DNA of 64,000 bases, taken from assembly GCF_026967805.1 (NCBI RefSeq), contig NZ_JAPVBG010000003.1, positions 682,001 to 746,000 of the forward strand, read 5' to 3'. The notes under the pieces were generated by a model that was given only the letters and a program-made list of their open reading frames with translations, was not told the DNA's origin and did not search any database. Of this stretch, positions 13,059 to 28,236 are shown in pieces. A program made the position numbers and the translations under genes. This stretch comes from Blastococcus sp. VKM Ac-2987. Its GTDB lineage: Bacteria; Actinomycetota; Actinomycetes; Mycobacteriales; Geodermatophilaceae. How positions within the stretch are numbered: the stretch's first letter is position 1; each line of letters begins with the position of its first letter.

Positions 13059-14651
13059 TCAGGCGCCGAGGTTGCCGATCAGGACGGTGTCGCCGGCGCG
13101 GTCGGTGACCGGCTCGGTGTGGTCGAGCCCGGTGAAGTCGTTGCCCTCGATGGCGACCCCGCTCGACGTGGGCGACACCCGGATCGCCCGCGCGGTGGAG
13201 GCCCCCGCGGCCTGCTCGAAGGTCGAGCCGGCCACCCGGGCCCCGGAGACGCCGAGGAGGTCGACCGCCCACAGGCTCTCCAGACCGGTGAAGCGGCAGT
13301 TCTCCACCGACAGCGCCGTCACCTCGGTGACCGGGCCGACCACGAGCAGCCGCTTGCCGGGGGCGCCGACGAACGTGCAGTCGGAGAAGCGCGGCCGGTC
13401 GGTGCCGTCCACCACGACGGTCGTCGGTGCCGCCCCCGACGGGGCGGTGAACGTGCACCCGTCGAAGGTCAGGCCGCTGATGTTCGGGCCGCCGACCCGC
13501 AGCGGGCTGTTCACGGCGGCGAGGACGTCGGTGCGGGTGAACGTCACGTCGCGGATCGCGCCCTGGGACGCCGCATCGGTCTGCACCCGGATCTCCTGGG
13601 TGGACGCGTCCTCGGCACCGGACATGTCGACGGTGCAGTCGGTGAAGGTGACCCGCTCGATGGCGCCGCGGCTGTGGGTGTTCTTGACGACGATGCCCCG
13701 GTTGGCGGCCGAGCCGTGGCAGTCGCGGAACGAGCAGTCCGACACCGACGCGTCCATGTCGGTCGTCCCGGGCTCGCCACCGGTGAACTCGAGCAGCGCG
13801 ACCATGAACCGGCTCACCGAGCTCGCCCCGGTGCACCCGTCGAAGCTGCCGCGGACGATGCTGCGGTTGTAGAGCGAGGGCTCGGCCTCCGGGTTGCCGA
13901 TCGGCACGAACTGGTAGCAGTCGTCCCCGGACTCGACGTGGCACCCGGTGCCGAGGAAGTCGGCACCACCGAACACCCGGATCCCGCCCGTGCCGGTCTC
14001 CTGCGCGCTGTTCCGGACGGTGACCTGGTGGATGCGGCCGCGGTCGCCGCTGTACATGATCGCCTGACCGCCGGCGTAGGTGTCGATGGTGAAGTCGCTC
14101 AGCAGCACGTCGTGGCCGTAGAGCCCGATCACCACCCCGGTCCGGGTGTGGTCCCGGGCGCCGATCGTCCCGGTCCCGGTGATCCGCACCCCGCTCGACG
14201 GCACGGCCAGGTCGGCGTTGCGGAGGAAGGCGTCCTGCAGGCCGACGGGCGCCGCCCAGTCCTTCAGCAGCAGCGACCCCCGTGCGAGGTGCAGCTGCGC
14301 GCCCGGGGGCACGGAGAGGCCGGCCGTGCAGCGGTACACCCCGCGGGGCACCACGCCGACGACCCCACGGCGGGCGCTGGCGTCGATCAGCCGCTGCACC
14401 GCCCTCGTGTCGTCGTCCCGGCCGTTGCCCTCCGCGCCGAAGTCGCGCAGGTCCAGTACGTCGTCGTCGTCGCCGCGCAGGGCCAGCGGCGTGGCACCGG
14501 CCGGCGGGGAGGTGGACGAGGAGAGCCCGGCGAGCACCGGGGCGGTGAGTCCGGCGCCGCCGAGCAGCAGGAGCCCGCGCCGGCTCAGCGACGGGCCGGC
14601 CGGCCGCTCGCGGCCGGCGGTGGAGCCGGTGTCGGTGTCGTGCTCGCGCAT
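13059..14651 (-). CDS. Secreted right-handed beta-helix (pectate-lyase-like) protein
   Basis: The 530-residue protein has a Tat-type leader (SLSRRGLLLLGGAGLTAPVLAG). It then has LDLRDFGAEGNGRDDDTRAVQRLID, the entry motif of polygalacturonase/tail-spike-like beta-helix proteins. The rest is a series of parallel-beta coils with repeated patterns such as VTFTDCTVD, LTFDGCTF, RFSDCTFVG and LSVENCRFTG. Related proteins in capsule loci are polysaccharide lyases, hydrolases, epimerases or matrix-binding proteins; catalytic residues cannot be picked out with confidence. It is the last gene of an operon with the sugar-phosphate transferase 59 bases upstream, so it most likely acts on the polymer made by this locus. 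Confidence 0.75.
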   Translation of the reverse strand: MREHDTDTGSTAGRERPAGPSLSRRGLLLLGGAGLTAPVLAGLSSSTSPPAGATPLALRGDDDDVLDLRDFGAEGNGRDDDTRAVQRLIDASARRGVVGVVPRGVYRCTAGLSVPPGAQLHLARGSLLLKDWAAPVGLQDAFLRNADLAVPSSGVRITGTGTIGARDHTRTGVVIGLYGHDVLLSDFTIDTYAGGQAIMYSGDRGRIHQVTVRNSAQETGTGGIRVFGGADFLGTGCHVESGDDCYQFVPIGNPEAEPSLYNRSIVRGSFDGCTGASSVSRFMVALLEFTGGEPGTTDMDASVSDCSFRDCHGSAANRGIVVKNTHSRGAIERVTFTDCTVDMSGAEDASTQEIRVQTDAASQGAIRDVTFTRTDVLAAVNSPLRVGGPNISGLTFDGCTFTAPSGAAPTTVVVDGTDRPRFSDCTFVGAPGKRLLVVGPVTEVTALSVENCRFTGLESLWAVDLLGVSGARVAGSTFEQAAGASTARAIRVSPTSSGVAIEGNDFTGLDHTEPVTDRAGDTVLIGNLGA

Positions 14652-14676
14652 GGGTTTTCTCGTCTCGGGACGCCTC

Positions 14677-14694
14677 CACCGGCCGCGGCCGGTG
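14677..14694. repeat. Perfect 18-bp palindrome between sugar transferase and beta-helix genes
   Basis: CACCGGCCG and its exact reverse complement abut in the 59-base gap between the two genes. In RNA it could form a small hairpin that modulates expression of the downstream gene, or it may be a protein-binding site. Confidence 0.4.
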
Positions 14695-14710
14695 AAGGCA
14701 CAGGGGTGGG

Positions 14711-16228
14711 TCAACTGCTGGTCACCGTGCGGACGGCCGTGTGGAGAGCCTGCCGCTGCACGGCGGCGGTGGTACGGATCAGGATGACGACGTCGCGCCA
14801 GAGCGACCACTGCTCGATGTACGCGTTGTCGAACCGGGCCCGCTCCTCGATGGAGGTGTCCCCGCGCAGGCCGTGGATCTGGGCCCAGCCGGTGAGGCCG
14901 ACGGCCAGCCGGTGGCGGTCGCGGTAGCCGTGCACCGAATCGGCGAACTGGGCGGCGTAGGTGCACTCCTCCGGCCGCGGGCCGACGAGGGACATGTCGC
15001 CGCGCAGGATGTTCCACAGCTGGGGCAGCTCGTCGAGGCTGGTCCGCCGCAGCACGTTCCCGAGGCGCGTCTGCCGCTGCTCGACGTCGACCTGCCGGGC
15101 GTGCATGGTCGTCCGCGTCGAGCCGCTCGTCCGGGGCCCGTCGGCCGGCTGCTGCGCCGCGGGCACCCGCAGGGTGCGGAACTTGAGGATCTCGATCCGC
15201 GCGTCGCCGTGCCCGGTGCGCGGCTGCCGGAACAGGACCGGGCCGGGGCTGCTGATCCGCACCGCCGCGGCGAGCAGCGCCATGACCGGCGAGAGCAGGG
15301 TGAGCGCCACCCCCGAGACGGCGACGTCGATCACCCGCTTCACCCGCCGGGCGCCCCGGCGCAGCGCGGCCCGGCGCACCCGGTGCAGCGGGATGCCCCA
15401 CAGGTCCTCGATGTCCGGGCCGCCCGGGGACATGCCGACGTCGAAGAACCGCGGGACGACGTAGACCTCGACGTCGCGCAGCGCCGCGCTGCGCACCAGG
15501 TCCACGAGCTCGGCCTCGCGGGTGGGGCCGTAGGCGACGACGACCTTGCGCACGCCGTAGGTGTCGAGGACCAGGTCCAGGTCCTCCAGGTGGCCCAGCG
15601 GCTCGCGCTCGTCGAGCGGGCTGCCGTCGGTGAGGAACCCGACGCCGCGGAGGCCGAACTCGGGGTGCTCCTGCATCGTGGCCAGCAGCTGCATCCCCAG
15701 CCGGCCACCCCCGACGACCAGGGTGAGCTCCTCGACGACCCGGTGCCGCCGCGCGCTGCGGACGGCCGCGTAGCCGAGGCCGCGGCCGATCACGACGCAC
15801 GGCACGGCCCATGCCGCGTGCAGCGCCAGGTCACCTGCCGCCGAAGAGGCGAAGGGTGCGACCAGGAGCAGCGCCACGCCCACGCGGGGGAGGAGCCGGG
15901 GGGCCTCGTCGAGGGCGGAGAGGGTGATCCGCGGGCGGTGGGCGCCCGAGCACGCCAGCACGAGGAGGGCGACGACGACGAACGCGGCACCGGCGCGGAC
16001 CGCCCCGCCCGGCCAGGCCATCGGCAGCGCCAGCGCGACGGCGTCCAGGACGAGCAGCCCGGCGCGGACCACGGGTGCGGAGTCGCGGACCTCGCGCTCG
16101 GGCAGGTGCAGATCGGCGGCCGAACCGAGGGCGTCGGGATCCGACGCGGGGCGGACATCGGCGAGGATCCGCCTGAGCGGCTCCGGACGCCGGCTGGTCC
16201 GGCCCTGCTCGTACGACACCTCGGTCAT
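14711..16228 (-). CDS. Exopolysaccharide-initiating sugar-phosphate transferase (polyprenyl glycosylphosphotransferase)
   Basis: The 505-residue protein has the WbaP/CpsE layout. There are four or five N-terminal membrane helices (residues 50-150), a nucleotide-binding-like middle domain (TLVVGGGRLGMQLL), one more helix (about 320), and the C-terminal catalytic bacterial-sugar-transferase domain. That domain holds KRVIDVAVSGVAL, GPVLFRQPRTG, KFRTL, RRTSLDELPQLWNILRGDMSLVGPRP and GLTGWAQIHGLRGDT. It transfers a sugar-1-phosphate to undecaprenyl phosphate, starting repeat-unit synthesis on the cytoplasmic face. The KFRTL segment replaces the usual KFRSM. It is divergent from a sulfotransferase gene and heads the operon with the beta-helix gene. 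Confidence 0.9.
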   Translation of the reverse strand: MTEVSYEQGRTSRRPEPLRRILADVRPASDPDALGSAADLHLPEREVRDSAPVVRAGLLVLDAVALALPMAWPGGAVRAGAAFVVVALLVLACSGAHRPRITLSALDEAPRLLPRVGVALLLVAPFASSAAGDLALHAAWAVPCVVIGRGLGYAAVRSARRHRVVEELTLVVGGGRLGMQLLATMQEHPEFGLRGVGFLTDGSPLDEREPLGHLEDLDLVLDTYGVRKVVVAYGPTREAELVDLVRSAALRDVEVYVVPRFFDVGMSPGGPDIEDLWGIPLHRVRRAALRRGARRVKRVIDVAVSGVALTLLSPVMALLAAAVRISSPGPVLFRQPRTGHGDARIEILKFRTLRVPAAQQPADGPRTSGSTRTTMHARQVDVEQRQTRLGNVLRRTSLDELPQLWNILRGDMSLVGPRPEECTYAAQFADSVHGYRDRHRLAVGLTGWAQIHGLRGDTSIEERARFDNAYIEQWSLWRDVVILIRTTAAVQRQALHTAVRTVTSS

Positions 16229-16308
16229 CCGGCTCCTGTCTCCGTGGTCTGCTGACAGGGTCCGGACTTGCCGGGGCCGGGGACACCGCCACCCGTGGGT
16301 GCGCCGGC

Positions 16309-16323
16309 CCCCCAAATCAGGGG
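16309..16323. promoter_or_regulatory. CCCC-N7-GGGG element between sugar transferase and sulfotransferase genes
   Basis: A C-run and a G-run flank an AT-rich centre (CAAATCA). The element lies about 80 bases upstream of the sugar-transferase start and just upstream of the divergent sulfotransferase. Similar elements lie at comparable distances before the multicopper oxidase and haem peroxidase genes, so a shared regulator is possible. Confidence 0.4.
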
Positions 16324-16357
16324 GTCGCACGCCGGCCGCCGCCGGGGCCGGCGCCGG

Positions 16358-16363
16358 TAGCAT
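16358..16363 (+). promoter_or_regulatory. -10 element TAGCAT of a leaderless sulfotransferase gene
   Basis: TAGCAT is followed by exactly seven bases and then the GTG start at 16371. That is the spacing expected when transcription begins on the first base of the start codon, and no Shine-Dalgarno is present. Confidence 0.6.
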
Positions 16364-16370
16364 CCCGCCG

Positions 16371-17294
16371 GTGGCGGCGGCGGCGAACTTCCTGGTCATC
16401 GGGGCGGCGCGGAGCGGGACGACCGCACTCACCTCCTTCCTCCGCGAGCACCCGGACGTCTTCGTCGCCACTCCGAAGGAGCCGCACTTCCTCGCCTTCC
16501 CCGGTGGCGGCCCGCACTTCGCCGGGGTGGGCGACGACGACCTGGTCAACCGGTCCGCGGTGCGCGGCGAGGAGGCGTGGCGGCGGCTGTTCGAGGGCCG
16601 CTCCGAGGCGCGTCTCGGCGAGGGGTCGGTGACCACGCTGGCCTACCCCGACGCCTCCATCCCCGCCATCGAGCGGTACTGCGCGCCCGGGTGCCGGCTC
16701 GTGGTCTGCCTCCGGGACCCGGTCGACAGGGCGTTCTCCAGCTGGCTGTACCTGCGGTCCCGCGGCCACGACGCCGGGACGTTCGAGGAGTGCCTGGCCG
16801 CCGAGGAGCAGCGCACCCGGGACGGGTGGAGCCACATGTGGCAGCTGGCCCGCCTCAGCCGATACGCCGAGCAGCTCGCGCCGTTCGCCGCCGCCTTCGG
16901 CGACCGCCTGCTCGTCGTCGTCCAGGAGGACTTCGCCGCGGACCCGGCCGGTCAGCTGCGGCGGGTGCTGCAGTTCCTGGAGGTGGACCCGGACGTCGAC
17001 ATCGACCCGACGCGCCGGGTGAATGCGGCGGGCCTGCCGCGCAGCCGGGCGGTCGCCTCCGCGCTGAACGGCCTGCGCCGCTCCCCGTCCTTGCGGCGGC
17101 TGGTCACCGCGGCCGTGCCGGCGCGGCAGCGGGAGCGGATCCGCTCGGCGAACCTGGACCCGATGGCGGTCGACCCCGCGACGCGGGCCCGGCTGGCCGC
17201 CTCCCTCGCCGACGACGTCACCGACCTGCAGGCGCTGCTCGGGCCCCGGCTGTCGAGGTGGCCGACGGCGGCGCACCTGGAGGGACGGGCATGA
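16371..17294 (+). CDS. Sulfotransferase (PAPS-dependent), copy 1 of 3
   Basis: The 307-residue cytoplasmic enzyme starts almost directly with the 5'-phosphosulfate loop GAARSGTTAL. It carries the 3'-phosphate-binding element as LRDPVDRAFSSW. These are the two hallmarks of PAPS-dependent sulfotransferases of the heparan N-sulfotransferase/Stf type. It should transfer sulfate to hydroxyl or amino groups of a carbohydrate. GTG 16371 is chosen because the PAPS loop must lie within the first 20 residues and because of the leaderless promoter pattern. Its stop overlaps the start of the glycosyltransferase gene by four bases (ATGA), so the two are coupled. Confidence 0.85.
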   Translation: MAAAANFLVIGAARSGTTALTSFLREHPDVFVATPKEPHFLAFPGGGPHFAGVGDDDLVNRSAVRGEEAWRRLFEGRSEARLGEGSVTTLAYPDASIPAIERYCAPGCRLVVCLRDPVDRAFSSWLYLRSRGHDAGTFEECLAAEEQRTRDGWSHMWQLARLSRYAEQLAPFAAAFGDRLLVVVQEDFAADPAGQLRRVLQFLEVDPDVDIDPTRRVNAAGLPRSRAVASALNGLRRSPSLRRLVTAAVPARQRERIRSANLDPMAVDPATRARLAASLADDVTDLQALLGPRLSRWPTAAHLEGRA

Positions 17295-18541
17295 GCGGAC
17301 GGGTCAAGGTCCTGCAGCTGACCGGGATCACCGTCGGCGGGTCGGCCGAGCACCTGCTCCAGCTGGCGACCCTGCTGCCCCCGGACCGGTTCGAGACCAC
17401 GATCGCGCTCTCCGGCGGTGGCCCGCTGGACGACGCCGTCCGGGCGAGCGGGCTCCCCGTGCTCGACTACGCCCCCTCCCACGGCGCCGGTCACTTCAAG
17501 CAGGCGACGCCGGACGGGCCGGCGGAGCTCCTCCGCCAGTTCCTGCGGATCCGGGCACACATCCGCCGCTCCGGCTACGACGTGGTGCACACCCACACCT
17601 CGGTGGCCGGCGCCATGGGCCGGGTGGCGGCCTGGTCCGCCGGCACGCCGGTCCGGGTGCACATGCTGCACGCCTACGCCGGGCACGCCGGGGTGCCGCA
17701 GCCCAGGCGCTCGCTGTACCGGACGGCCGAGCGCGTCCTCGGCCTGTTCACCACGCACTACGTCGCCGGCTCGCGGTTCATCCGCGACGTCGGCGTCCGC
17801 TCCCGCCTGTTCCGGCCCCGGGACTGCACGGTGATCCCGTACTCCACCCGGATGGCCGTGGGCGACGCGACCGCGGCCGACCGGTCCCGCCTGCGGGCGG
17901 AGCTGGGCCTGCCCCCGGACGCACCGCTGGTCGCACTGGTCGGTCGGATCGAGGACCAGAAGGGCGTGGACCTGCTGGTCCGGGCGGTCCCCGCGGTGCT
18001 CGCCCGGGTGCCGGGCGCCCACGTCGTCGTCGTCGGTGACGGCACCCGGCGGGCGGCGGTCGAGGCGCTGGCCGGCGAGCTGGGGGTCAGCGACCGCGTG
18101 CACGTCACCGGGTGGCGGCACGACCTCGCCGACGTGATGCGGGGGATCGACGTCCTCGCCCTGCCGTCGCGCTGGGAGGCGTTCGGCATCGTCAACCTGG
18201 AGGCGATGGCGGCGGCCCGGCCCGTGGTCGGCTTCGCCGTCGAGGGGATCCCGGAGGTCGTCGTCGCCGGGGAGACCGGGCTGCTGTCGCCGGCCGGCGA
18301 CGTGGACGTGCTGGCGCGCGACCTGGTGCGCGTGCTGACCGACCCCGAGCTGGCCGCCCGGCTCGGCGCCGCGGGACGGCGGCGCTTCGTCGAGCACTTC
18401 GCGCCGGAGCGGATGGTGCAGGCGCACGTCGAGCTCTACGACCGGCTGCTGGCCCGGCGGCGCGACCGGGTCAGCCGGCGGCGGCCCGTCCTGGACCGGC
18501 TGCGCCGTCCGGGGGGAGCACGCCGCGGACCAGCCGGCTGA
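17291..18541 (+). CDS. Glycosyltransferase family 4
   Basis: The 416-residue protein is a retaining GT-B glycosyltransferase. The N-terminal Rossmann domain contains VVHTHTSVAGAMGR. The C-terminal domain contains VGRIEDQKGVDLLVRAV and the E-x7-E-type nucleotide-sugar motif WEAFGIVNLEAMAAARPVVG. It would add a sugar to the lipid-linked repeat unit. The start overlaps the preceding sulfotransferase stop. The last 71 bases overlap, antisense, the end of the next glycosyltransferase gene; the C-terminal tail is Arg-rich. Confidence 0.85.
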   Translation: MSGRVKVLQLTGITVGGSAEHLLQLATLLPPDRFETTIALSGGGPLDDAVRASGLPVLDYAPSHGAGHFKQATPDGPAELLRQFLRIRAHIRRSGYDVVHTHTSVAGAMGRVAAWSAGTPVRVHMLHAYAGHAGVPQPRRSLYRTAERVLGLFTTHYVAGSRFIRDVGVRSRLFRPRDCTVIPYSTRMAVGDATAADRSRLRAELGLPPDAPLVALVGRIEDQKGVDLLVRAVPAVLARVPGAHVVVVGDGTRRAAVEALAGELGVSDRVHVTGWRHDLADVMRGIDVLALPSRWEAFGIVNLEAMAAARPVVGFAVEGIPEVVVAGETGLLSPAGDVDVLARDLVRVLTDPELAARLGAAGRRRFVEHFAPERMVQAHVELYDRLLARRRDRVSRRRPVLDRLRRPGGARRGPAG

Positions 18542-19685
18542 AGGTGCGGCCGAGGTCCTCGGCCCGGTAGTGGGCGCGGATGAGGGCGGCGCCCGCGGCG
18601 CCCATCGCCGCGCGCCCGTCCGGGGACAGCGCCGCCAGCTCGGTGATCCGTTCCCGGACCGACGCCGGGTCCCCGGTCCGGGCCAGCAGGCCGTCCCGGC
18701 CGGGCTCGAAGACCGGTGGCCGCCCCGAGCAGTCGGTGAAGACCGTCGGGCAGCCGGCGGCCATCGCCTCCATGACCGCGAGCGGCAGCGCGGGGCCCTC
18801 CCACCGGGCGGTGTGCACGTACCCGTCGGCCGCGGCGAGCAGCCGGGCGACGTCGTCCCGCCAGCCGAGGAAGGTGACGGTGCCCGCCAGGCCGAGCTCG
18901 CGGACCTGCCGGCGCAGGGACGTCGCGTAGTCCTGTGTCCGCCGGGCAGCGACGGAGTCCCCGGCCGAGCCCACCAGGGCCACCCGCACCGGTGCGGGCA
19001 GGCCGGCGAGCGCCGCCAGCAGCACGTCCTGGCCCTTCTGCGGGTCCAGCCGGCCCACGTTGAGCAGCAGCAGGTCGTCCTCACCGGCCCCCATCTCCGC
19101 CCGGAGCCGGGCCCGCTCCGCGGCGGCCGGCCGGGCCGGGGGAGCGACCACGATGCCGTTGGGGAGGACGACGGTCCGCTCGGCCGGCACGCCGAAGCCG
19201 GTCATCTCGTCGCGCACGACGGCGGAGGTGCAGACGGCCAGCGTCGTCGCCCGGGCGACCACGGCCCGGTAGCTGCGCCGCTTGAGGGCGGCCAGCGGCC
19301 GCGGCCCCCAGAAGTGGTGCTGGTTCTGCACCATGAGCACCCCGGGGACACCGGCGCGGGCCGCGGCGAGCAGCGCCGGGGCGCGGTCCCGCTGGTTGAC
19401 CCCGATGACGCAGCGCCCGCCCTCGCGGCGCACCCGGTCGGCCAGGGCCGGGACCAGGCGGGGGTCCCAGGGCCGCTCGAGCCGCTCCTCCAGCACGGTC
19501 GCGACGCCGAGGGCGGCCATGTCGGGCAGGACGCTCGGGCCCGCGCGGGGGACCGGGCCGTGCACCAGGGTCAGCTCGAAGCCGTCGGCACGCAGCGCCC
19601 GCGCGAACTCCAGCGCCATCTTGGCCGCGCCCGTGCGGTCGGGCAGCCGCAGGGTCATGACCAGCCGGCCGGCGGAGCCGGTCAC
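18471..19685 (-). CDS. Glycosyltransferase family 4
   Basis: The 404-residue GT-B enzyme has an N-terminal DRTGAAKMALEFARALRADG acceptor-side element. The C-terminal domain has LNVGRLDPQKGQDVLLAAL and the donor-binding WEGPALPLAVMEAMAAGCPTV. It is probably the second elongating transferase of the repeat unit. The GTG start overlaps the upstream sulfotransferase stop (GTGA), and its 3' end overlaps the convergent glycosyltransferase gene by 71 bases. MTLRLPD, nine residues in, is an alternative start. Confidence 0.85.
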   Translation of the reverse strand: MTGSAGRLVMTLRLPDRTGAAKMALEFARALRADGFELTLVHGPVPRAGPSVLPDMAALGVATVLEERLERPWDPRLVPALADRVRREGGRCVIGVNQRDRAPALLAAARAGVPGVLMVQNQHHFWGPRPLAALKRRSYRAVVARATTLAVCTSAVVRDEMTGFGVPAERTVVLPNGIVVAPPARPAAAERARLRAEMGAGEDDLLLLNVGRLDPQKGQDVLLAALAGLPAPVRVALVGSAGDSVAARRTQDYATSLRRQVRELGLAGTVTFLGWRDDVARLLAAADGYVHTARWEGPALPLAVMEAMAAGCPTVFTDCSGRPPVFEPGRDGLLARTGDPASVRERITELAALSPDGRAAMGAAGAALIRAHYRAEDLGRTFSRLVRGVLPPDGAAGPGRAAAG

Positions 19686-20608
19686 GGGGCGCCGCCCGCC
19701 GGCCGGTCCGGCGACCGCCACGCGGCCACGTCCAGACCGGTGAGCTGCTCGAGCAGGTCCAGGTCCGGGGCGAAGCGTGCGACCAGCGCGCGCCGGGTCT
19801 CCGGGCGGTAGCCGATCCGCACGATGTTCCCGGCGACGATCCGCCGCCGCAGCGCCCGGCGCACCGACGTCGGGACGACGGGGGCGAGCAGCTTCTTGAG
19901 TGGGTGGTGCGTGCTGACCACCCGGCCGAGGAACCGGCTGCGCGGCTCCCCGGAGCGGTGCGGATCCGGCGCGACCGTGCGGGGGACCGGCGGCACCCCG
20001 AGGTGGGCGTACACCCGGGCGAGCACGGCGTCGGGGTCGGCGGTCAGGTCCTCGTGCCGCAGCACCAGCAGCTGCTCCCGCGGGAAGACCTCCAGCACCC
20101 GCTGCAGCTGCTCGCCGTACCGGCTCATCGCCGTGTAGTGCCAGATGTGGTGCCACCCCGCGGCGATCCGGCGCTCCTCGTCCCGCAGCGCCTCCTCGAA
20201 GGTCGGGCACGGCTCCCACCCGCGGGTGCGCATGAAGCCGTAGGCCGACAGCGCCCGGTCCACCGGGTCGCGCAGGACGCACACCAGCCGCGCGTCGGGG
20301 GCCATCTCGCGGATGCGGGCCGCCGCCTCCGGCGAGTACATCGTCGAGACCGACGCCTCCCCGCGGAGCTGGCCGGGCCGGGCGTCCCGGTACAACCGCA
20401 GGTAGGCGTCCCGGTCGGGCACCGCGAGCCGGTTGATCGTCTGCCGGTCACCGGGCCCGGTGAACGCCGGCGTCGTCCCGGCCAGCGCGAAGTAGTGCGG
20501 CTCCTTGGGCTCGGTGAGGAACAGCCCGGGGTGCTCGGCGAGGTACTGGTACAGCGCCGTCGTGCCCGATCGTGCTGCGCCGATGACGAGGAACTGCGGT
20601 CCGGGCAT
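19682..20608 (-). CDS. Sulfotransferase (PAPS-dependent), copy 2 of 3
   Basis: The 308-residue enzyme has the PAPS loop GAARSGTTAL at residues 9-18 and the 3'-phosphate site LRDPVDRALSAY. TEPKEPHYF follows the first helix, as in copy 1 (ATPKEPHFL), so these two are close relatives and clearly share an origin. It sits between a flippase and a glycosyltransferase in one minus-strand operon (Wzy, Wzx, sulfotransferase, GT4), with a 3-base gap upstream and a 4-base overlap downstream. That places sulfation in repeat-unit assembly before export. Confidence 0.87.
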   Translation of the reverse strand: MPGPQFLVIGAARSGTTALYQYLAEHPGLFLTEPKEPHYFALAGTTPAFTGPGDRQTINRLAVPDRDAYLRLYRDARPGQLRGEASVSTMYSPEAAARIREMAPDARLVCVLRDPVDRALSAYGFMRTRGWEPCPTFEEALRDEERRIAAGWHHIWHYTAMSRYGEQLQRVLEVFPREQLLVLRHEDLTADPDAVLARVYAHLGVPPVPRTVAPDPHRSGEPRSRFLGRVVSTHHPLKKLLAPVVPTSVRRALRRRIVAGNIVRIGYRPETRRALVARFAPDLDLLEQLTGLDVAAWRSPDRPAGGAP

Positions 20609-20611
20609 GCC

Positions 20612-22009
20612 TCACCTCCTGGTCGGGTGCGCGGTCGTGCGGATGCCGAGCGACCGGGAGGCCGCCCGGGCGAGGTGCAGGTTGCGCGCGCTCATGGCCA
20701 CCGCGGCGGCCGCGGCCACGCCGGTGCCGCCCCAGGCCGAGCCCCACCAGACCGCCAGCCCCGCGAAGGCCGCCGCCGCGGCCAGGGCGCTGACGGCGAC
20801 GGTGCGCTGCCGGCCGGCGTGGGAGAGCACGACCGAGCACGGCCCGGTCCAGGCGTTGACGACGACGCCGGCGCTCATCACCAGCGCCGGGACGAGGGCG
20901 GCCGCGTACGGCGGCCCGAACAGCGCCGGCAGCAGCAGGGAGCCGGTCGCGGCGAGCAGGACGACCGCCGCCGCGGTCGCGGCGGTCGACCAGACCGCGA
21001 ACCGCCGGACCGGCTCCTGCAGCGCGGTCAGCCGGCCGGCGCCCGAGGCGGCGGCGATCCGCGGGGCGAGGGTGCGCACGCCGATGGCGGTCGGTACGGC
21101 GACCAGCACCGCGATCCGCACTGCCACCGCGAAGACGGCCACCTCCTCGACCGGCGCGACCACGGCGAGCAGCCAGACGCCGGACTGCGGCAGGGTGACC
21201 GACGCCAGGGTGGCGAGGGCGAACGCGCGGCCCGAGCGCAGCAGCCGCCACGGCGACCCGCTGCCGGCCGCGCTCCCGATCGCCCCCGAGGGCGCCTCCC
21301 GGGCCGGCCCGTCGTCGGGCACCCGGCGGGCCGCGTGCCGGCCGGCGGCGTCCGGACCGGTGTCGCGGGCCAGGAGCAGCAGGGCGGCGAGGACGACCGC
21401 CGTCTCGACGGCGACCGTCCACGCCACGGCGGCCCGCGCCGACAGGGTGGCGGCGGCGCCGGCCGCCCCGAGCAGGAGCACCCCGACGAGGACCACCCGG
21501 CGGACGTGCTCGCCGAACACCAGGGCCAGCCCGAACCGGGCCCGGGCCCGCAGCACGTTGACCAGCACCGGGCCCAGGGCCGCCGCCGGCAGCCAGAGCG
21601 CCACCAGCAGCACCAGCGGCCGGTAGGCCGCGGGCGGGGTGCCGGCCGCGGCGGTCGCCGGCCCGATCGCCCACTGCCAGAGCGCGGCGGTGACCAGCAC
21701 GCCGACGGTCTGCGCGAGCACCAGCCGGCGCAGCAGGGCCGCGTGCGTGCGCCGCGCGCGCTGGGCGACGGCGACCGTGGCCACCTGGGTCAACCCGAAC
21801 TGGGCGAGGACCGCCAGGAAGGCCAGCCAGCTCAGCGCCCAGGACAGCGCGCCGAACTCGGCCGTCGGCAGCACGCGCGCGCCGACCACCGCGACGAGCA
21901 GGGCGCTGACGACGGCGGCCAGCTGGCCGACCGCGACCAGCACCGTGTCCCGGCGGAGTGCGCGGTGCTCGGCGGCGGGCCCGCGGTCGTCGGTGAGCGG
22001 GGAGGTCAC
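20612..22009 (-). CDS. Wzx-like polysaccharide flippase (MOP superfamily)
   Basis: The 465-residue protein has about twelve to fourteen hydrophobic segments in the arrangement of polysaccharide-type MOP exporters. It opens with RDTVLVAVGQLAAVVSALLVAVVGARVLPTAEFGALSWA, a typical Wzx entry. The central cytoplasmic loop (about residues 215-255) is charged and variable. It should flip the lipid-linked repeat unit to the outer face of the membrane. The GTG start overlaps the Wzy-like stop by four bases (GTGA). Confidence 0.82.
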   Translation of the reverse strand: MTSPLTDDRGPAAEHRALRRDTVLVAVGQLAAVVSALLVAVVGARVLPTAEFGALSWALSWLAFLAVLAQFGLTQVATVAVAQRARRTHAALLRRLVLAQTVGVLVTAALWQWAIGPATAAAGTPPAAYRPLVLLVALWLPAAALGPVLVNVLRARARFGLALVFGEHVRRVVLVGVLLLGAAGAAATLSARAAVAWTVAVETAVVLAALLLLARDTGPDAAGRHAARRVPDDGPAREAPSGAIGSAAGSGSPWRLLRSGRAFALATLASVTLPQSGVWLLAVVAPVEEVAVFAVAVRIAVLVAVPTAIGVRTLAPRIAAASGAGRLTALQEPVRRFAVWSTAATAAAVVLLAATGSLLLPALFGPPYAAALVPALVMSAGVVVNAWTGPCSVVLSHAGRQRTVAVSALAAAAAFAGLAVWWGSAWGGTGVAAAAAVAMSARNLHLARAASRSLGIRTTAHPTRR

Positions 22010-23415
22010 CGGGCGGGCGCCGTCGGTTCGGCCCGGGCGTCGCCGGCCCCCTCCGGCTGCGGGTGCGCCGGGGAGGTCTCCCCGTCCCCGCGCTCCCGCC
22101 GGAGGAAGAGGTTGACCAGCACGGTGAAGGCGATGATCGGCAACCCGATGGCCACCCACTTCGGTGCCGACGTCGCCCACACGCCCCCGGGGAACACCCG
22201 GATCAGGAAGACCAGGCTGAAGCCCCAGACCAGCGGATCGCGCAGGAACCGGCGGAACGCGAACTGACCGGCCCGGGCGACCAGACCGCTGAGCAGCCCG
22301 CCGAGGACCACGCCGGGGTGGCCGAGGTTCACGTACCAGTCGCCCACCGGGGTGGCCGGGAAGCCGTTGTTGCGGTCGATGTAGGTCTGGGCCAGCTGCA
22401 CCGCGGGGGAGACGAACGGGTCCTGCGGGCCGACCAGCAGCGAGGGCGCCGCGGCGACCGACCCGTCGACGAAGTCGGCGCCACCGGTGAAGTCGAACCG
22501 GTCGGGCCAGTCGTCGAGGTAGAGCAGCAGCGCGTCGTAGAAGGTGTTGTTCGTGGCGACCGCGACCTGGCGGACGGTGCCCTGCCCCTCGATCGTCGGC
22601 GCCAGGTCCCCCCACAGCACGGTGTCGCGGGCGGCGCGCAGCGTGAAGGCCAGCGCCAGCGCGAGCACCGGCACCAGCAGGAACCGGAGGCGCCAGCGCG
22701 GGTCGCGCAACCACTGCCCGTCGGGGCGGCGGGCGGCCCGGCGCCCGGTCCGGCCGAAGATCAGCCCGCCGGCGAGGAGGGCGACGGCGGAGAGCACCGG
22801 GACGTCGCGGGCCCCCCACGTCCAGCTGAGGTAGCCGTTGAGGACGACGAGCCCGAGGACGAGCAGCCGCTGCGGCCCGGCCCGGCGCACCGAGAAGAAG
22901 GCGGCGACACCGAGGAGCGCGGCGAGCAGGGGGATGCTCCGCAGCGCCCGGCTGTCGGCGATGTCACGGTCGACCTTCGACGCCTGCAGCAGACCGGCGG
23001 GACCGCCGTACCGGACCCACAGCGCCGCGGTCGCGACCGTGGCGGCGGCGGTCAGCACGACGGCGAGGACCACCAGCGTCCGCGCGGGCAGCGGGCCGCG
23101 GGGCTGCGGGAACAGCAGCGACGCGGGGCGGACGAGCGGGGTCAGGAAGCGGGCACCGGCCCACAGCGCCAGCAGGAACAGCACGACGACCGCCTGGCCG
23201 CGGAGCAGGAGGAGCTCGGTGTCCCGCTCGGCGAACAGCAGCGTGGGGAACGGGCTGTCCAGACCCAGGGCCAGCACCAGCGGCCGCCACAGCAGTTGCA
23301 GCGCCAGGTAGTAGAGGACCAGCGCCATCGCGTCCAGCGGATGACGGACGAGATCGCGGTAGACCAGCGCCCACACGGCGACGGACGCGGTCACCGCGAG
23401 GAGGGGCACGATCAC
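22006..23415 (-). CDS. Wzy-like O-antigen/exopolysaccharide polymerase
   Basis: The 469-residue membrane protein has ten or more predicted helices and a large periplasmic loop (about residues 270-370, containing DRFDFTGGADFVDGS and QTYIDRNNGFPATPVGDWYVNLG). That loop resembles the catalytic loop of Wzy/O-antigen polymerase proteins such as the oligosaccharide repeat-unit polymerase family. Sequence identity within this family is low, so the call rests on topology and on position directly upstream of the flippase. The start is GTG 23415. A -10 TAGCCT lies at 23494-23499 on this strand, giving a leader of about 70 bases. Confidence 0.72.
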   Translation of the reverse strand: MIVPLLAVTASVAVWALVYRDLVRHPLDAMALVLYYLALQLLWRPLVLALGLDSPFPTLLFAERDTELLLLRGQAVVVLFLLALWAGARFLTPLVRPASLLFPQPRGPLPARTLVVLAVVLTAAATVATAALWVRYGGPAGLLQASKVDRDIADSRALRSIPLLAALLGVAAFFSVRRAGPQRLLVLGLVVLNGYLSWTWGARDVPVLSAVALLAGGLIFGRTGRRAARRPDGQWLRDPRWRLRFLLVPVLALALAFTLRAARDTVLWGDLAPTIEGQGTVRQVAVATNNTFYDALLLYLDDWPDRFDFTGGADFVDGSVAAAPSLLVGPQDPFVSPAVQLAQTYIDRNNGFPATPVGDWYVNLGHPGVVLGGLLSGLVARAGQFAFRRFLRDPLVWGFSLVFLIRVFPGGVWATSAPKWVAIGLPIIAFTVLVNLFLRRERGDGETSPAHPQPEGAGDARAEPTAPAR

Positions 23416-23493
23416 GACCGCGCTCCCGCGTCCTGCGAGGGGCCCACCGCATCCTCCGACCGTCGCCGTCCCTCGACGGCGGCACGAGGCGCG

Positions 23494-23499
23494 AGGCTA
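23494..23499 (-). promoter_or_regulatory. -10 element TAGCCT of the Wzy-Wzx-sulfotransferase-GT4 operon
   Basis: On the minus strand TAGCCT matches TANNNT and lies about 80 bases before the Wzy-like start codon. No -35 consensus stands out. Confidence 0.4.
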
Positions 23500-23554
23500 A
23501 CCCAGCGGAGCCGCATTGCGGCCATCAGCGGTTCCGCGACCCGGTCCGCGCCCC

Positions 23555-23560
23555 TAGCAT
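23555..23560 (+). promoter_or_regulatory. -10 element TAGCAT of a second leaderless sulfotransferase gene
   Basis: The string CCTAGCAT is followed by seven bases and the ATG at 23568, the same arrangement as before sulfotransferase copy 1. There is no ribosome binding site. Confidence 0.6.
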
Positions 23561-23567
23561 CCCTCGG

Positions 23568-24446
23568 ATGCGCCCGGGCCCGAAGCTGATGATCGTCGGT
23601 GCGCCCAAGAGCGGGTCCACCGCGCTGTTCCGCTATCTCGCCGAGCACCCGGACGTGCACGGTCACGTGCACCGGGAGATGCCCTTCTTCGGCCGCGACG
23701 ACGAGTTCGCCCGCGGCTGGGAGCACGCCGTCGAGAAGTACTTCCCGCCGGAGGCGGAGCACGCGCCGCTGGTCGCCAAGCACACGATGGCGATGTACGA
23801 CCCGAGCGCGGTGCGCCGCATCGTCGACACCACCCCGGCGGTGGTGGTCGCCGTCCTCCGCAACCCCGTGCCGCGCGCGTACTCGCACTTCCACTACGCC
23901 CGGCTGCGGGGCTGGGAGGACGCGCCCACCTTCGAGGAGGGGCTGGCGCGGGAGGCACACCGGACGGTCAGCGCACCGCCCCGGGCCCGGGACCTGCAGT
24001 ACGTCGGCAACGGGATGTACGCCCCGCACGTTCGGGCGCTGCGCGAGCTCGTGCCGCCCGAGCGGCTGCGCATCCACCTCGCCGACGACCTGCGCGAGGG
24101 CGCCGCCCGGATCTGCGCCGAGCTGTTCGAGCTGGCCGGGCTGGCGCCCTACGAGCCGGACGTGACGAGGAGCCACAACGAGGGGCGGTCGGCCCGGTCG
24201 GCGCGCTTCGCCCGGGCCTTCCTCGCGGCGCAGCGGCCCGGCAGCCCGGTCCGCCGGCTGGTCGCGCGGGTCCCGAGCCGCACGCTCTACCGCGTCCGCC
24301 ACGTGGTCAACCGGCTCAACGAGGGCCCGGCGTCGATCCCGCCCATGGCCCCGGCGACCGCCGCCCGGCTGCGCGCGGTGTTCGCCGGACCCAACGCCGC
24401 CCTCGAGGGCGAGCTCGGGCGGTCCCTGGGCGCGTGGGAATCGTGA
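23568..24446 (+). CDS. Sulfotransferase (PAPS-dependent), copy 3 of 3
   Basis: The 292-residue enzyme has the PAPS loop GAPKSGSTAL at residues 11-20 and the 3'-phosphate element LRNPVPRAYSHFHY. It is more distant from copies 1 and 2, with Lys in the loop (PKSGS) as in classical heparan-sulfate sulfotransferases, and different residues after the first helix (HREMPFFGRDDEF). It therefore likely modifies a different position or sugar. It is divergent from the Wzy-like gene and 48 bases upstream of the Wzz-like gene, and is probably transcribed from the leaderless promoter just before it. Confidence 0.85.
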   Translation: MRPGPKLMIVGAPKSGSTALFRYLAEHPDVHGHVHREMPFFGRDDEFARGWEHAVEKYFPPEAEHAPLVAKHTMAMYDPSAVRRIVDTTPAVVVAVLRNPVPRAYSHFHYARLRGWEDAPTFEEGLAREAHRTVSAPPRARDLQYVGNGMYAPHVRALRELVPPERLRIHLADDLREGAARICAELFELAGLAPYEPDVTRSHNEGRSARSARFARAFLAAQRPGSPVRRLVARVPSRTLYRVRHVVNRLNEGPASIPPMAPATAARLRAVFAGPNAALEGELGRSLGAWES

Positions 24447-24462
24447 TGCGAGGAAGCTCCCG

Positions 24463-24487
24463 GGAACGCGGTCCGTGCCGGTACGTT
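24463..24487 (+). promoter_or_regulatory. Candidate promoter of the Wzz-like gene (GGAAC-N16-CGTT / TACGTT-N7-GTG)
   Basis: GGAAC at 24463-24467 and CGTT at 24484-24487 are 16 bases apart, as in ECF (SigE-type) envelope-stress promoters. The overlapping TACGTT at 24482-24487 lies exactly seven bases before the GTG at 24495, as in a leaderless gene. Both readings put the start of transcription at or very near the start codon. Confidence 0.45.
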
Positions 24488-24494
24488 CTCCGCC

Positions 24495-25412
24495 GTGCTC
24501 GAGACTGCACCTGACGTGACGGCGCACGCACCCGCGGACCGCGCCGGTGGCGTGCACCGGCAGGATCCCGCCCAGCCCGGAGCGGTGGAGTACCTTGCCG
24601 CCCTCCGCCGCTACTGGTGGCTCGCGCTGGCCACCTTCCTCGTCGTGCTGGTGGTGGCCGTCGCGTCGCTGTTCGTCGTCGGCCCGGTGTACCGGGCGCA
24701 GGCGGAGGTGCTGGTCCGCACGGAGGACAGCCGCCAGCTCTTCCCGCGGACCGGCGGCACCTCGGCCGGCGCCCTGATCCGGTCCCCGGCTGCCGAGCTC
24801 GTGTACGTGGGCAGCGACGTCTTCCAGGAGCTCGCCGCCGAGGCCGCGGGGGACGAGGCCGAGGTCGAGGTGCGCGGCACCGCCGACTCCAGCGCGCTGG
24901 TCTTCGTCGCCGAGGCCGGGAGCCCCGAGGGTGCGCGGGAGGCGGCGCAGACCTGGGCCGAGACCTACGTGGCGGTCCGCCACGCGAGCGACGTCGCGGA
25001 GACCGCGGCGCTGCGGGACCTGCTGATCGCCGACCGGGACGCCCTGCGGGCGCGGCAGCAGGAGATCCTCCAGCCGGTCGCCGCGCTGGACGAGGCGGTG
25101 GCCGTGGAGACCGACCCGGTCGAGCTCTCCCGGCTGCTCAACCAGCGGCTGGCCATCCAGCGGACGCTCAGCTCCGAGCTCGACCCCGTGGAGACGGAGC
25201 TGCGCCGGCTGAACACCCAGATCGCCGGCCTGGACGTCGACCTGCGCGTGCTGGAGAACGCCCAGGCGCTCGCGTACGTCAGCAGCGCGGCCGAGCTGCC
25301 CGAGGAGCGGGCGAACGGGTCGTTCCGGCAGAGCCTGCTGGTCGGCGTCGTCGCCGGCCTGGTCCTCGCCGGCGGCGCGGTCGCCGCGGCGCAGGCGTGG
25401 CGCCGCCGCTGA
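24495..25412 (+). CDS. Wzz-like chain-length/co-polymerase protein without kinase domain
   Basis: The 305-residue protein has one membrane helix at about residues 42-65. An extracytoplasmic domain beginning PVYRAQAEVLVRTEDS follows, then a coiled-coil-prone middle (about 150-260) and a second helix at about 283-300. This is the Wzz/PCP topology. Actinobacterial homologues often continue into a BY-kinase, but this one ends with RRR right after the second helix, and no kinase gene is nearby. It should set polymer length together with the Wzy-like polymerase. It converges on the decarboxylase gene, and an 8-bp inverted repeat (25406-25413 with 25436-25443) spans both stops. Confidence 0.75.
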   Translation: MLETAPDVTAHAPADRAGGVHRQDPAQPGAVEYLAALRRYWWLALATFLVVLVVAVASLFVVGPVYRAQAEVLVRTEDSRQLFPRTGGTSAGALIRSPAAELVYVGSDVFQELAAEAAGDEAEVEVRGTADSSALVFVAEAGSPEGAREAAQTWAETYVAVRHASDVAETAALRDLLIADRDALRARQQEILQPVAALDEAVAVETDPVELSRLLNQRLAIQRTLSSELDPVETELRRLNTQIAGLDVDLRVLENAQALAYVSSAAELPEERANGSFRQSLLVGVVAGLVLAGGAVAAAQAWRRR

Positions 25413-25436
25413 GCGACGGGTGGGCGGCCTCCTGCC

Positions 25437-26390
25437 TCAGCGGGCGGTGCGCACCACGTCCGGGTGGGTGGAGAACCAGTCGATGGTGCGCTTGAGGCCC
25501 TCGTCGAGGGCGACCTGCGGCTCCCAGCCCAGCGTCCGGCGGGCGAGGGTGATGTCGGGCTGGCGGACCGTCGGGTCGTCCTCGGGGCGGGGGATGAACT
25601 CGATCGTCGAGGTGGAGCCGGTCAGCTCCTGAATCCGCCGGGCCAGGTCGATGACCGGGAACTCGTGCGGGTTGCCGATGTTCATCGGGCCCGGCTCCGA
25701 CGACAGCAGGAAGCGGACGAGCCCCTCGACGAGGTCGCTGACGTAGCAGACGGACCGGGTCTGGCTGCCGTCCCCGGCCACGGTCATCGGCTCGCCGGCC
25801 AGGGCCTGCCGGATGAACGTGGGGATGGCCCGGCCGTCGCGCGGGCGCATGCGCGGGCCGTAGGTGTTGAAGATCCGCACGATCGCGGTGTCCACGCCGT
25901 GGGTGCGCCGGTAGGCCGACGTCAGCGCCTCCGCGAACCGCTTGGCCTCGTCGTACACCCCGCGCGGGCCCACCGGGTTCACGTTGCCCCAGTAGGTCTC
26001 CGGCTGCGGGTGGACCAGCGGGTCGCCGTAGGTCTCGGACGTGGAGGCCAGCAGGAAGCGGGCGTTCTTCTCCTTGGCCAGGCCGAGCGAGTGCAGCGTG
26101 CCGATCGAGCCGACCTTCATCGTGTGGATCGGCAGCTCGGCGTAGTCGATCGGGGAGGCGGGGGAGGCGAAGTGCAGGACGTGGTCGACCGGCCCCGGCA
26201 CGTGGACGTAGTCGGTGACGTCGGCCCGGATCAGCCGGAAGCCCGGGTGCTCCAGCAGGTGCGCCACGTTGGCCGGCGTCCCGGTGAGGAAGTTGTCCAG
26301 GCAGACCACCTCGACGTCCCGGTCGAGCAGCGCCTCGCACAGGTGCGACCCGAGGAAGCCGGCCCCGCCGGTCACGACAGCACGAGACAT
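25437..26390 (-). CDS. UDP-glucuronate decarboxylase-like (UDP-xylose synthase) SDR enzyme
   Basis: The 317-residue extended short-chain dehydrogenase has the NAD-binding [15 protein letters not shown] and the catalytic triad STSETYGDP with YDEAKRFAE (Y-x3-K). The UXS-type segments [25 protein letters not shown] and [10 protein letters not shown] are present. These are diagnostic for UDP-glucuronate decarboxylase, which makes UDP-xylose, rather than for 4-epimerases. It supplies a pentose donor for the neighbouring polymer. The ATG has GAGAGGA upstream, and TACGGT at 26433-26438 (minus) is a good -10. Confidence 0.85.
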
Positions 26391-26520: not shown

Positions 26521-28236
26521 TCAGGGGGTGAGGAGGTTGTCCGAGCCGACCGGGGAGGTCGCCTCCGGGTTGATCTCCTCCTCGGGCTCCAGCGGGAGGG
26601 GGCCGGTCTCCTCGACCTCGTCCTCGGGCTGGACGATCCGGGAGCGGGGGTCGAGCGCGTCGGCGAGCAGGATCAGGTCGCCGATCGTCTTCTTCTCCTG
26701 CCACTGGAACGCGGGCTTGAGGTTGAAGTAGGACTCGGGGTCCAGCGCCATGATGCCGAGGATGGTCTCGGCGACGATCCGGCCGCCGACCGGGCCGAGC
26801 TTGCGGCCCCTGGCGAGCAGCTCGGCCTCCTTGAGCACGTAGTACCAGAGCGGCGCCTTGCCCTCCCAGCCCGGCTGCTTGAGCCCGAGCTCCGCATTGG
26901 TCAGCGGGGTGATCCCCATGGCGGTGGCGACGTCCTGCCCGCACGGCAGCCCGAGCCGCTTGCCGCGCAGCAGGTTGCGCTCGGCGAGGGCGACGATCGC
27001 CTTGGCGGTGGGGGCGACCACGGTGGAGGGCAGCGTGAACAGCGGCAGGGACAGCTGGGTGTCGATCAGCCGGGCCATGTTGCGGTCGTCCGGCGGCTCG
27101 AGGCCGGGGATGTCGAAGAAGTAGTTCCAGTCGCACCACAGGTCGTGCGGGATCGGCCGGTTGCCGCGGAGGTCCTCGAAGCCGTCCGCGCCGAAGATCG
27201 GCACCGTGTGGCCGTCCTGCATCTCGTACTCGGCGCGGATCATGCTGTGGCCGAAGCGGTACGCGGCGCCCGAGTACTCGATCGGCATGTACGGGTTGTC
27301 GGGGTGCTCGGGCCGGTAGAAGGTGCCGGTGAACGTGATGGTGCCGTCGCGCTTGATCAGGCTGCTGACGACGTCCCGGCCGACGATGCGCGGCAGGTAG
27401 TCGTTGACGATCAGCCACTGGTAGTGCCAGCGGGTCTGCCGGCGGGCCTGGGCGTAGGTCATGCCCTGGTCCATGAACCGGTTGTGCAGCCGGATGAAGA
27501 CGGTGTGCAACTGGGCGACGATGAGGTTCTCGTCGTTCCGCGGGTCGCCGAGGTAGGCGGCACCGACGTCGTCGCGCGGCAGGTCGACCAGGTCGTCGTG
27601 CGCCCAGACCCGCAGGTAGCCGTAGCGCTCCGGGTCGTACAGCTCGGGGCTGCCCTTGATGCCCTTGCCGTAGACGCTCCCCAGGTCGAACCACGGGGTG
27701 TCGTAGTTCCGCATGGCCATCGGGTCCTGCAGCCGGTGGGTGAGCGGCGTCTTGTCCAGGGTCATGTCGTGGTCGACGAACTGGCCGAAGTAGATGTAGC
27801 CGGCCGGCATGCCCGGGTTGTCGAAGGCGACGTCGCTGTCCTTGACGTCGGTCAGCGGCGCCTTGCCGTCGTTCATGCTCGCCGCGAGCCACAGCAGCAG
27901 CCCGTCGGTCGGGGCGAAGGGCGGCAGGTCCTTGAACATCAGCCCGAAGCGGGCCTCCAGCGTCCGGTCCACCCGGGCCGCGATCTCCGCGCCCCGCGGG
28001 TCGCCGACGGCGTGCGCGGCGGTCTCGGCGGGTGCGTCGGGGGCCGCGGTCGGTTCCGTCCCGGCCAGCGCCTCGGCGCGCGCCGTGCCGGCGAGGCCGC
28101 CGACGACGGGCACGGCCGCCATGGCGAGCGCCCCGGCGAGAAAGCCCCGCCGGGCCACCTCCCGCGATGCGCCCGCCCCGCTGAACGGGCAGCCGCCCGC
28201 GGCCCGGGAGTCCGGCTCCACCCTCATCGCCTCCAC
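26521..28236 (-). CDS. Secreted animal-type haem peroxidase
   Basis: The 571-residue protein has a Tat-type leader (VARRGFLAGALAMAAVPVVGG, ending near ARA). It then has an animal/dual-oxidase-like peroxidase domain: FGQFVDHDMTLDKTPL with the distal histidine, VFIRLHNRFM, and YRFGHSMIRAEYEM with the proximal histidine. It should use H2O2 to oxidise halides or organics outside the cell. An N-terminal GCPFSG before the leader is unusual. GTG 28236 is preferred because GGAGAG lies at good spacing; ATG 28227 is the alternative. A CCCC-N7-GGGG element lies about 95 bases upstream. The gene is not obviously part of the polysaccharide operon. Confidence 0.85.
   Translation of the reverse strand: MEAMRVEPDSRAAGGCPFSGAGASREVARRGFLAGALAMAAVPVVGGLAGTARAEALAGTEPTAAPDAPAETAAHAVGDPRGAEIAARVDRTLEARFGLMFKDLPPFAPTDGLLLWLAASMNDGKAPLTDVKDSDVAFDNPGMPAGYIYFGQFVDHDMTLDKTPLTHRLQDPMAMRNYDTPWFDLGSVYGKGIKGSPELYDPERYGYLRVWAHDDLVDLPRDDVGAAYLGDPRNDENLIVAQLHTVFIRLHNRFMDQGMTYAQARRQTRWHYQWLIVNDYLPRIVGRDVVSSLIKRDGTITFTGTFYRPEHPDNPYMPIEYSGAAYRFGHSMIRAEYEMQDGHTVPIFGADGFEDLRGNRPIPHDLWCDWNYFFDIPGLEPPDDRNMARLIDTQLSLPLFTLPSTVVAPTAKAIVALAERNLLRGKRLGLPCGQDVATAMGITPLTNAELGLKQPGWEGKAPLWYYVLKEAELLARGRKLGPVGGRIVAETILGIMALDPESYFNLKPAFQWQEKKTIGDLILLADALDPRSRIVQPEDEVEETGPLPLEPEEEINPEATSPVGSDNLLTP

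Follow-up and report, generated by a model that had tools for sequence, protein, structure and literature searches.

A predicted sulfated-exopolysaccharide locus with three sulfotransferase genes, conserved across Blastococcus and Geodermatophilus

What product is made by a bacterial gene block in which three sulfotransferase genes are interleaved with the apparatus for assembling a polysaccharide? Most reports of sulfated polysaccharide chemistry concern animals, algae and cyanobacteria, and the block considered here (positions 13059-26390) lies in a 64 kb stretch, hereinafter the window, of contig 6 of a 4.6 Mb Blastococcus genome. Its eleven genes code for a phosphoglycosyltransferase (PGT), two GT4 glycosyltransferases (GT4a and GT4b), Wzx-, Wzy- and Wzz-like proteins, a UDP-xylose synthase (UXS)-like enzyme, a beta-helix protein and three sulfotransferases (STA, STB and STC). 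The original prediction had read the locus as the source of a sulfated exopolysaccharide, and of the readings considered this one agrees best with the genes it contains, with the way the block is conserved together with all three sulfotransferases, and with the presence in the genome of genes for synthesis of the sulfate donor 3′-phosphoadenosine 5′-phosphosulfate (PAPS), the sulfation itself being predicted. We accordingly consider it likely, from the sequence evidence set out below, that the block directs Wzx/Wzy-dependent synthesis of a sulfated exopolysaccharide. Since many reading frames are open at the GC content of the window (68-80% per 2 kb step), the genes were fixed by third-position GC and Pfam family matches, with start codons of our own choice; every element named in the original prediction was recovered in this way:

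13059-14651, minus strand: beta-helix protein with a Tat-like (twin-arginine translocation) signal (PF12708, E 1.8e-9; PF13229, E 1.6e-6; SRRGLLLL motif found by eye)
14711-16228, minus strand: PGT, initiating polyprenyl-phosphate glycosylphosphotransferase (PF02397, E 1e-57; TIGR03025, 338.8 bits, cut-off 295.55)
16371-17294, plus strand: sulfotransferase A, STA (PF13469, E 4e-15 on a longer open frame)
17291-18541, plus strand: GT4a glycosyltransferase (PF00534, E 9.5e-41 on a longer open frame)
18471-19685, minus strand: GT4b glycosyltransferase (PF00534, E 6.4e-27 on a longer open frame)
19682-20608, minus strand: sulfotransferase B, STB (PF13469, E 4.5e-22)
20612-22009, minus strand: Wzx-like flippase (PF01943, 28.4 bits, cut-off 28.2; about 11 hydrophobic segments)
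22006-23415, minus strand: Wzy-like polytopic protein, presumed repeat-unit polymerase (topology; place beside wzx)
23568-24446, plus strand: sulfotransferase C, STC (PF13469, E 1.8e-7; PF00685, E 3.2e-6)
24495-25412, plus strand: Wzz-like chain-length protein (PF02706, 25.9 bits, cut-off 25.5; two hydrophobic segments)
25437-26390, minus strand: UXS, UDP-glucuronate decarboxylase (UDP-xylose synthase)-like (phmmer to 4gll, E 4.4e-103)

These genes are arranged around two divergent junctions, with the beta-helix and PGT genes (minus strand) set against STA-GT4a (plus strand) at the first, and Wzy-Wzx-STB-GT4b (minus) against STC-Wzz (plus) at the second; the UXS gene lies on the minus strand.

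All three sulfotransferases score over the Pfam Sulfotransfer_3 cut-off and carry PAPS-site motifs and a conserved glutamate, marking them as predicted PAPS-dependent carbohydrate sulfotransferases. A Sulfotransfer_3 search of the 4.6 Mb genome returned none besides these three, other sulfotransferase families not having been searched. The claim that two of them are coupled to the glycosyltransferases was borne out by four-base stop-start overlaps between STA and GT4a (ATGA) and between STB and GT4b (GTGA), and the division into two close relatives and a third with a different PAPS loop was likewise recovered: among the window proteins STA and STB are 43% identical and share the loop GAARSGTTAL, whereas STC, with GAPKSGSTAL, is 32% identical to STA and shows 27-32% identity to the STB orthologues. 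Two diverged enzyme types of this kind make at least two sulfated positions on the predicted product plausible. All 15 sulfotransferases compared, from five genomes, share an invariant LR.PV.RA.S stretch and an invariant glutamate (residue 37 of STA); the conserved motifs are read here as the 5′ PAPS loop and 3′ motif, and the glutamate is presumably catalytic, as in the heparan sulfate sulfotransferases. In profile searches of solved structures the nearest matches were to 3rnl (named only 'Sulfotransferase'), a full-length sequence relative of the STB (E 8.8e-68) and STC (E 3.6e-20) profiles, and then to heparan sulfate 3-O- and N-sulfotransferases, namely 3-O-sulfotransferase 3A1 with STB (E 6e-18) and NDST 1nst with STC (E 6.8e-12). 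Because a hydropathy scan of STA, STB and STC gave zero membrane segments, we take them to be cytosolic.

The assembly proteins range from clear to marginal family members. The initiating PGT, over cut-off for the model TIGR03025, has 8t53 as its best solved relative (E 4.1e-30). Similarly, UXS matches 4gll, UDP-glucuronic acid decarboxylase 1, far better than the best other family (E 4.4e-103 vs E 9.4e-39), and none of the 25 NCBIfam models listed for it reached its cut-off. The Wzx- and Wzz-like proteins pass their Pfam cut-offs narrowly; the NCBIfam model WZX_like matched the former only at E 0.63, and for the latter the NCBIfam Wzz models scored under cut-off and no kinase domain was matched. 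About nine hydrophobic segments, together with an extended hydrophilic region at residues 260-393, give the Wzy-like protein a topology that fits Wzy; it has no credible Pfam match and, among NCBIfam polymerase models, matches TIGR04370 at E 0.17 only. No outer-membrane polysaccharide export (OPX) protein or regulator was identified among the block genes.

To assess conservation we used a set of 112 genomes of the family and located related loci through sulfotransferase searches. Besides the window, the block with STA, STB and STC orthologues is present in five genomes, three of Blastococcus (KM273128, here G019; MG754426, here G020; and strain CPCC 205250) and two of Geodermatophilus (G. ruber, G052, and G. 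sabuli, G054). All six loci contain the PGT, both GT4 enzymes, and the Wzx-, Wzy- and Wzz-like proteins alongside the three sulfotransferases, with gene order and strand kept across the two genera and the STA/GT4a four-base overlap retained in 6/6. Since the loci came from sulfotransferase searches, at least one sulfotransferase per locus is given by construction; the presence of all three within the polymer locus is not, and neither is the result of an independent search with the beta-helix protein (E 1e-15), which recovered 6/112 family genomes: five that have the locus, counting the window genome, plus G042 with a fragment. When 51 sulfotransferases were placed in a tree, STA, STB and STC each formed a clade of their own with six members and 100/100 support. 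STA and STB belong to a wider grouping of lower certainty (91/92) that also includes proteins from two Nocardioidaceae and a Rhodopirellula; STC is separate, at the end of a long branch. The tree comprises 51 rows of 65 matches, a match to the A3 profile having to span 180 residues or more, so that some sulfotransferases of the loci were left out; as the program gave long-branch warnings, we use only the three clades of six. Two of the stretches read (L046 and L049) were covered by BLAST only and two (L090 and L091) by the tree search only.

The ratios of nonsynonymous to synonymous substitution (dN/dS), computed pairwise between the window and up to four genomes (GT4b and CPCC 205250 left out) and rough on account of the extreme third-position GC, are well below 1. 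They fall at 0.19-0.41 over 12 sulfotransferase comparisons (STA 0.26-0.41, STB 0.19-0.35, STC 0.31-0.33), a strength of constraint similar to that on GT4a (0.20-0.37) and the Wzy-like gene (0.22-0.37); Wzx falls at 0.26-0.40, the PGT at 0.34-0.48, the beta-helix protein at 0.40-0.50 and UXS at 0.13-0.24.

The PAPS synthesis genes that the original prediction proposed to look for elsewhere in the genome are present: CysD and CysN (ATP sulfurylase) lie in one row with a CysQ-like gene, and there is one adenosine 5′-phosphosulfate (APS) kinase; CysD, CysN and the APS kinase pass curated NCBIfam cut-offs. The kinase is not specific and we rejected it as evidence for sulfation, given that its matches (E 0.001) occur in 111/112 family genomes vs 71/112 with Sulfotransfer_3. 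CysH, which lies behind a sulfite-reductase-like gene (assigned by eye), scores 211 bits with the APS-reductase model and 152 bits with the PAPS-reductase model, both under cut-off. It has the CC and CxxC cysteine pairs that we take to be the hallmark of APS reductases, and its sequence is thus probably of the APS type; if this is right, sulfate assimilation would proceed via APS and PAPS would therefore be free for sulfation.

For the predicted pathway we infer the acceptor, the sequence of steps, the number of sulfates, the identity of the sugars and the occurrence of sulfation before flipping. The PGT would load the first sugar on undecaprenyl phosphate, and GT4a and GT4b would lengthen it into a repeat unit of roughly three sugars. 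With UDP-xylose supplied by UXS, the polymer probably contains xylose or a xylose-derived sugar. STA, STB and STC, as soluble, cytosolic, PAPS-dependent enzymes, would sulfate the lipid-linked repeat unit at up to three sites; Wzx would then flip the sulfated unit, the Wzy-like protein would polymerise it under Wzz, and the polymer would be released. Outside the cell, the secreted beta-helix protein may trim, cut or modify it, possibly as a lyase, hydrolase or epimerase of the polymer. One parallel is synechan of Synechocystis sp. PCC 6803, a chemically analysed product that contains sulfate and is specified by the xss cluster (PMC8205485). Its eight glycosyltransferase and two sulfotransferase genes correspond to sugars and sulfates in a molar ratio of 8:2 (PMC8205485), and since the gene counts there match the ratio, three sugars and three sulfates would be a reasonable guess for the window locus. 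Deleting one of the two synechan sulfotransferases left bloom formation and exopolysaccharide yield about unchanged (PMC8205485), so gene count need not equal function.

UXS was also considered as proof of xylose and rejected in that role: matches occur in 97/112 family genomes, the window genome has a second paralogue, 72% identical, on contig C1, and one of the loci has no copy. The UXS copies at the loci of G019, G052 and G054 are 90-94% identical to that of the window. One strong match to the UDP-glucose-dehydrogenase family lies elsewhere in the window genome.

Several observations weigh against a sulfated exopolysaccharide as the product. The margins for Wzx and Wzz are thin, and the polymerase role of the Wzy-like protein is assigned from topology and place; its AlphaFold model, built from a five-sequence alignment, has a mean pLDDT (the model's own confidence measure) of 41 and is unusable, and that of STC, likewise from five sequences, is poor (mean pLDDT 49). 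G020 has no UXS at the locus and a 71% identical paralogue elsewhere. As to PAPS, the single APS kinase is on a different contig from the window and its family is near-universal in the relatives, the CysQ-like gene reaches 80 bits vs a CysQ cut-off of 228.8, and the APS-type call for CysH is not firm because CysH passes a general NCBIfam model named phosphoadenylyl-sulfate reductase. Finally, relatives detected with the STB profile extend to 49/397 genomes of the order (E 1e-40), and the single such neighbourhood inspected in a close relative that is not of the block type, in G107, has no other homologue of the window locus (in a BLAST against the window proteins only) and no polysaccharide genes recognisable by eye.

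These points bear differently on the alternatives. The one that survives best, though we regard it as unlikely, is that the sulfotransferases act on a short glycoconjugate, i.e., a glycolipid or a cell-wall-polymer or protein glycan, with 'Wzy' a ligase-like transferase. The weak Wzy assignment favors it, as do the sulfated lipo-oligosaccharides of rhizobia and mycobacteria, which are known products of bacterial sulfotransferases (PMC8205485); the exopolysaccharide-type PGT, over the TIGR03025 cut-off, and the Wzx- and Wzz-like proteins, the latter encoded in 6/6 loci, point instead to a polymer. Less probable still is that an exopolysaccharide is made while at least one sulfotransferase acts elsewhere, e.g., on a phenolic substrate of neighboring oxidases, or is inactive. 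Such a reading could draw on the related sulfotransferases of G107, found without recognised polysaccharide genes, and on the multicopper oxidase and peroxidase genes adjoining the block; against it stand the overlap of two sulfotransferase genes with glycosyltransferase genes, the constraint on all three, and the conservation of the residues read as PAPS loop and 3′ motif in 15/15 proteins. A chance neighborhood or decaying island with no common function, as might be suggested by the patchy distribution (5/112 family genomes, with a remnant in G042) and by six window genes outside the block without a match in the relatives' stretches compared, is highly improbable in the face of order and strand conserved across two genera and dN/dS well below 1.

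Returning to the sulfated exopolysaccharide, we asked how far the sulfation theme extends beyond this locus. The original prediction had called such polymers uncommon, especially in actinobacteria; this needs a caveat, given that at least one Sulfotransfer_3 match (E 1e-5) occurs in 71/112 family genomes, some of them in other exopolysaccharide clusters, and that a further actinobacterial cluster has been described (PMC13390465). One such run, in G019 (L093, 147-18143), codes for a PGT, a WecG-type GT26 enzyme, Polysacc_synt and Wzy_C proteins, a ParA/GNVR protein and two sulfotransferases, with CysD, CysN and APS kinase adjoining the latter; L092 and L094 have similar gene runs, and the three look like one region. 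Polysacc_synt and Wzy_C proteins with two sulfotransferases are likewise present in G058 (L045), and a Nocardioidaceae metagenome-assembled genome (L076, 3825-13515) has a PGT, Wzz, two sulfotransferases and an inositol-phosphatase-family gene, CysQ-like by eye. L093 and L045 combine Wzx-type, Wzy_C and Sulfotransfer_3 proteins (L093 also a PGT) and in this resemble the window locus with its Wzx- and Wzy-like proteins, but their gene sets differ. Of their sulfotransferases, the tree includes one from L093, which does not group with the STA, STB or STC clades, and none from L045.

Strong APS-kinase matches (E 1e-50 or stronger) were found in 108 genomes among the matches listed, and 11 of these 115 matches lie within 20 kb of a Sulfotransfer_3 match. 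For the 76/115 that are in sulfotransferase-bearing genomes, 0.92 near pairs would be expected by chance with an assumed genome size of 4.3 Mb, a comparison in which the genomes are related and the matches partly orthologous. None of the 11 is a window-type locus, and the nearness supports a sulfation theme in the family rather than the window locus itself.

Sulfotransferases inside a Wzx/Wzy cluster are already known in principle from synechan (PMC8205485) and have been predicted in wps-1 of Actinoplanes missouriensis (PMC13390465, published in 2026). Compared by gene content, xss and the window locus each bring together Wzx, Wzy (presumed in the window locus), a polysaccharide co-polymerase (PCP), a priming transferase, glycosyltransferases and distinct sulfotransferase subfamilies in one cluster, with two sulfotransferases and eight glycosyltransferases in the former and three sulfotransferases, two GT4 enzymes and one PGT in the latter. 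The wps-1 cluster codes for predicted Wzx, Wzy and Wzz proteins and two sulfotransferases, both of whose genes are needed for normal sporangia; AMIS_7390, the next locus-tag number, belongs to the sulfate adenylyltransferase/APS kinase family and its deletion also disturbs sporangia, and the sulfated polysaccharide is described as predicted, with verification awaited (PMC13390465). By gene content again, wps-1 has GT2, GT26, GH26 and a methyltransferase, whereas the window locus has GT4, PGT, UXS, beta-helix and three sulfotransferase genes. A different route, of the ABC type, has been proposed for the sulfated capsule of Vibrio KMM 8419, a polymer of solved structure (PMC11641403). The titles and abstract openings that we surveyed report no sulfated exopolysaccharide or sulfotransferase-bearing polymer locus for Blastococcus or Geodermatophilus. 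The window locus is thus set apart by its three sulfotransferases, dedicated UXS copy, beta-helix protein and conservation across two genera.

We would venture, tentatively and with some doubt, that Blastococcus and Geodermatophilus secrete a polymer with a repeat of about three sugars, up to three sulfates per repeat and a heparin-like charge density, and that several different Wzx/Wzy clusters in this family have acquired sulfotransferases. Were this so, sulfated matrices would be common in desert, stone and soil actinobacteria rather than in cyanobacteria and marine bacteria. The locus itself, should it make a sulfated polymer, would offer a terrestrial source of highly charged polymers along with several small carbohydrate sulfotransferases, and would suggest what the matrix of bacteria living in soil and on rock may consist of. 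The 2026 paper leaves open whether actinomycetes produce sulfated polysaccharides (PMC13390465); with a compact, conserved three-sulfotransferase system in genera that have named strains, the question becomes a simple chemical test.

The conserved block extends beyond 13059-26390 on both sides, where two oxidase genes bracket it:

10538-12541, minus strand: multicopper oxidase with a Tat signal, flanking, role in the locus uncertain (Pfam Cu-oxidase_2/_3, TAT_signal)
26521-28236, minus strand: haem peroxidase, role uncertain (PF03098, E 5.2e-19)

The multicopper oxidase adjoins the block in 5/6 loci (the window, G019, G020, G052 and CPCC 205250) and was not found in the 11 kb beside that of G054 (L084); in 6/6 the haem peroxidase lies no more than about 2 kb from the block. 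The peroxidase is 86-91% identical in G019, G020, G052 and G054, and matches of at least 86% occur in the same five family genomes (window included) as the beta-helix protein; more distant homologues are present in 24 of the other 107. We did not adopt the pair as parts of the pathway, in view of the peroxidase homologues elsewhere and the lack of the oxidase by the G054 block, and consider oxidative modification of the matrix by them a possibility.

Individual loci show further variation. G. sabuli has two beta-helix and two GT4b genes in a row (L043, 2864-6182 and 10125-12481), which suggests that its repeat unit may be longer or different, and CPCC 205250 also has two beta-helix genes. The Wzx match of G019 is split into two parts that lie in separate frames of one stretch (L040, 9590-10764), reflecting an assembly gap, a frameshift or a real break. 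In the G042 remnant (L086, 10009-11592), a truncated, C-terminal part of the beta-helix gene adjoins a UXS gene that matches the window copy at 87%, and no PGT-to-Wzz gene was found across the 20 kb covered; the two Sulfotransfer_3 matches of that genome are some 2 Mb distant. The APS kinase of the window genome (L008, 6406-7482) is extended at its N terminus by some 170 residues that match no Pfam family, and its neighbors are of the same kind as those of the L093 run, including a PGT-like gene.

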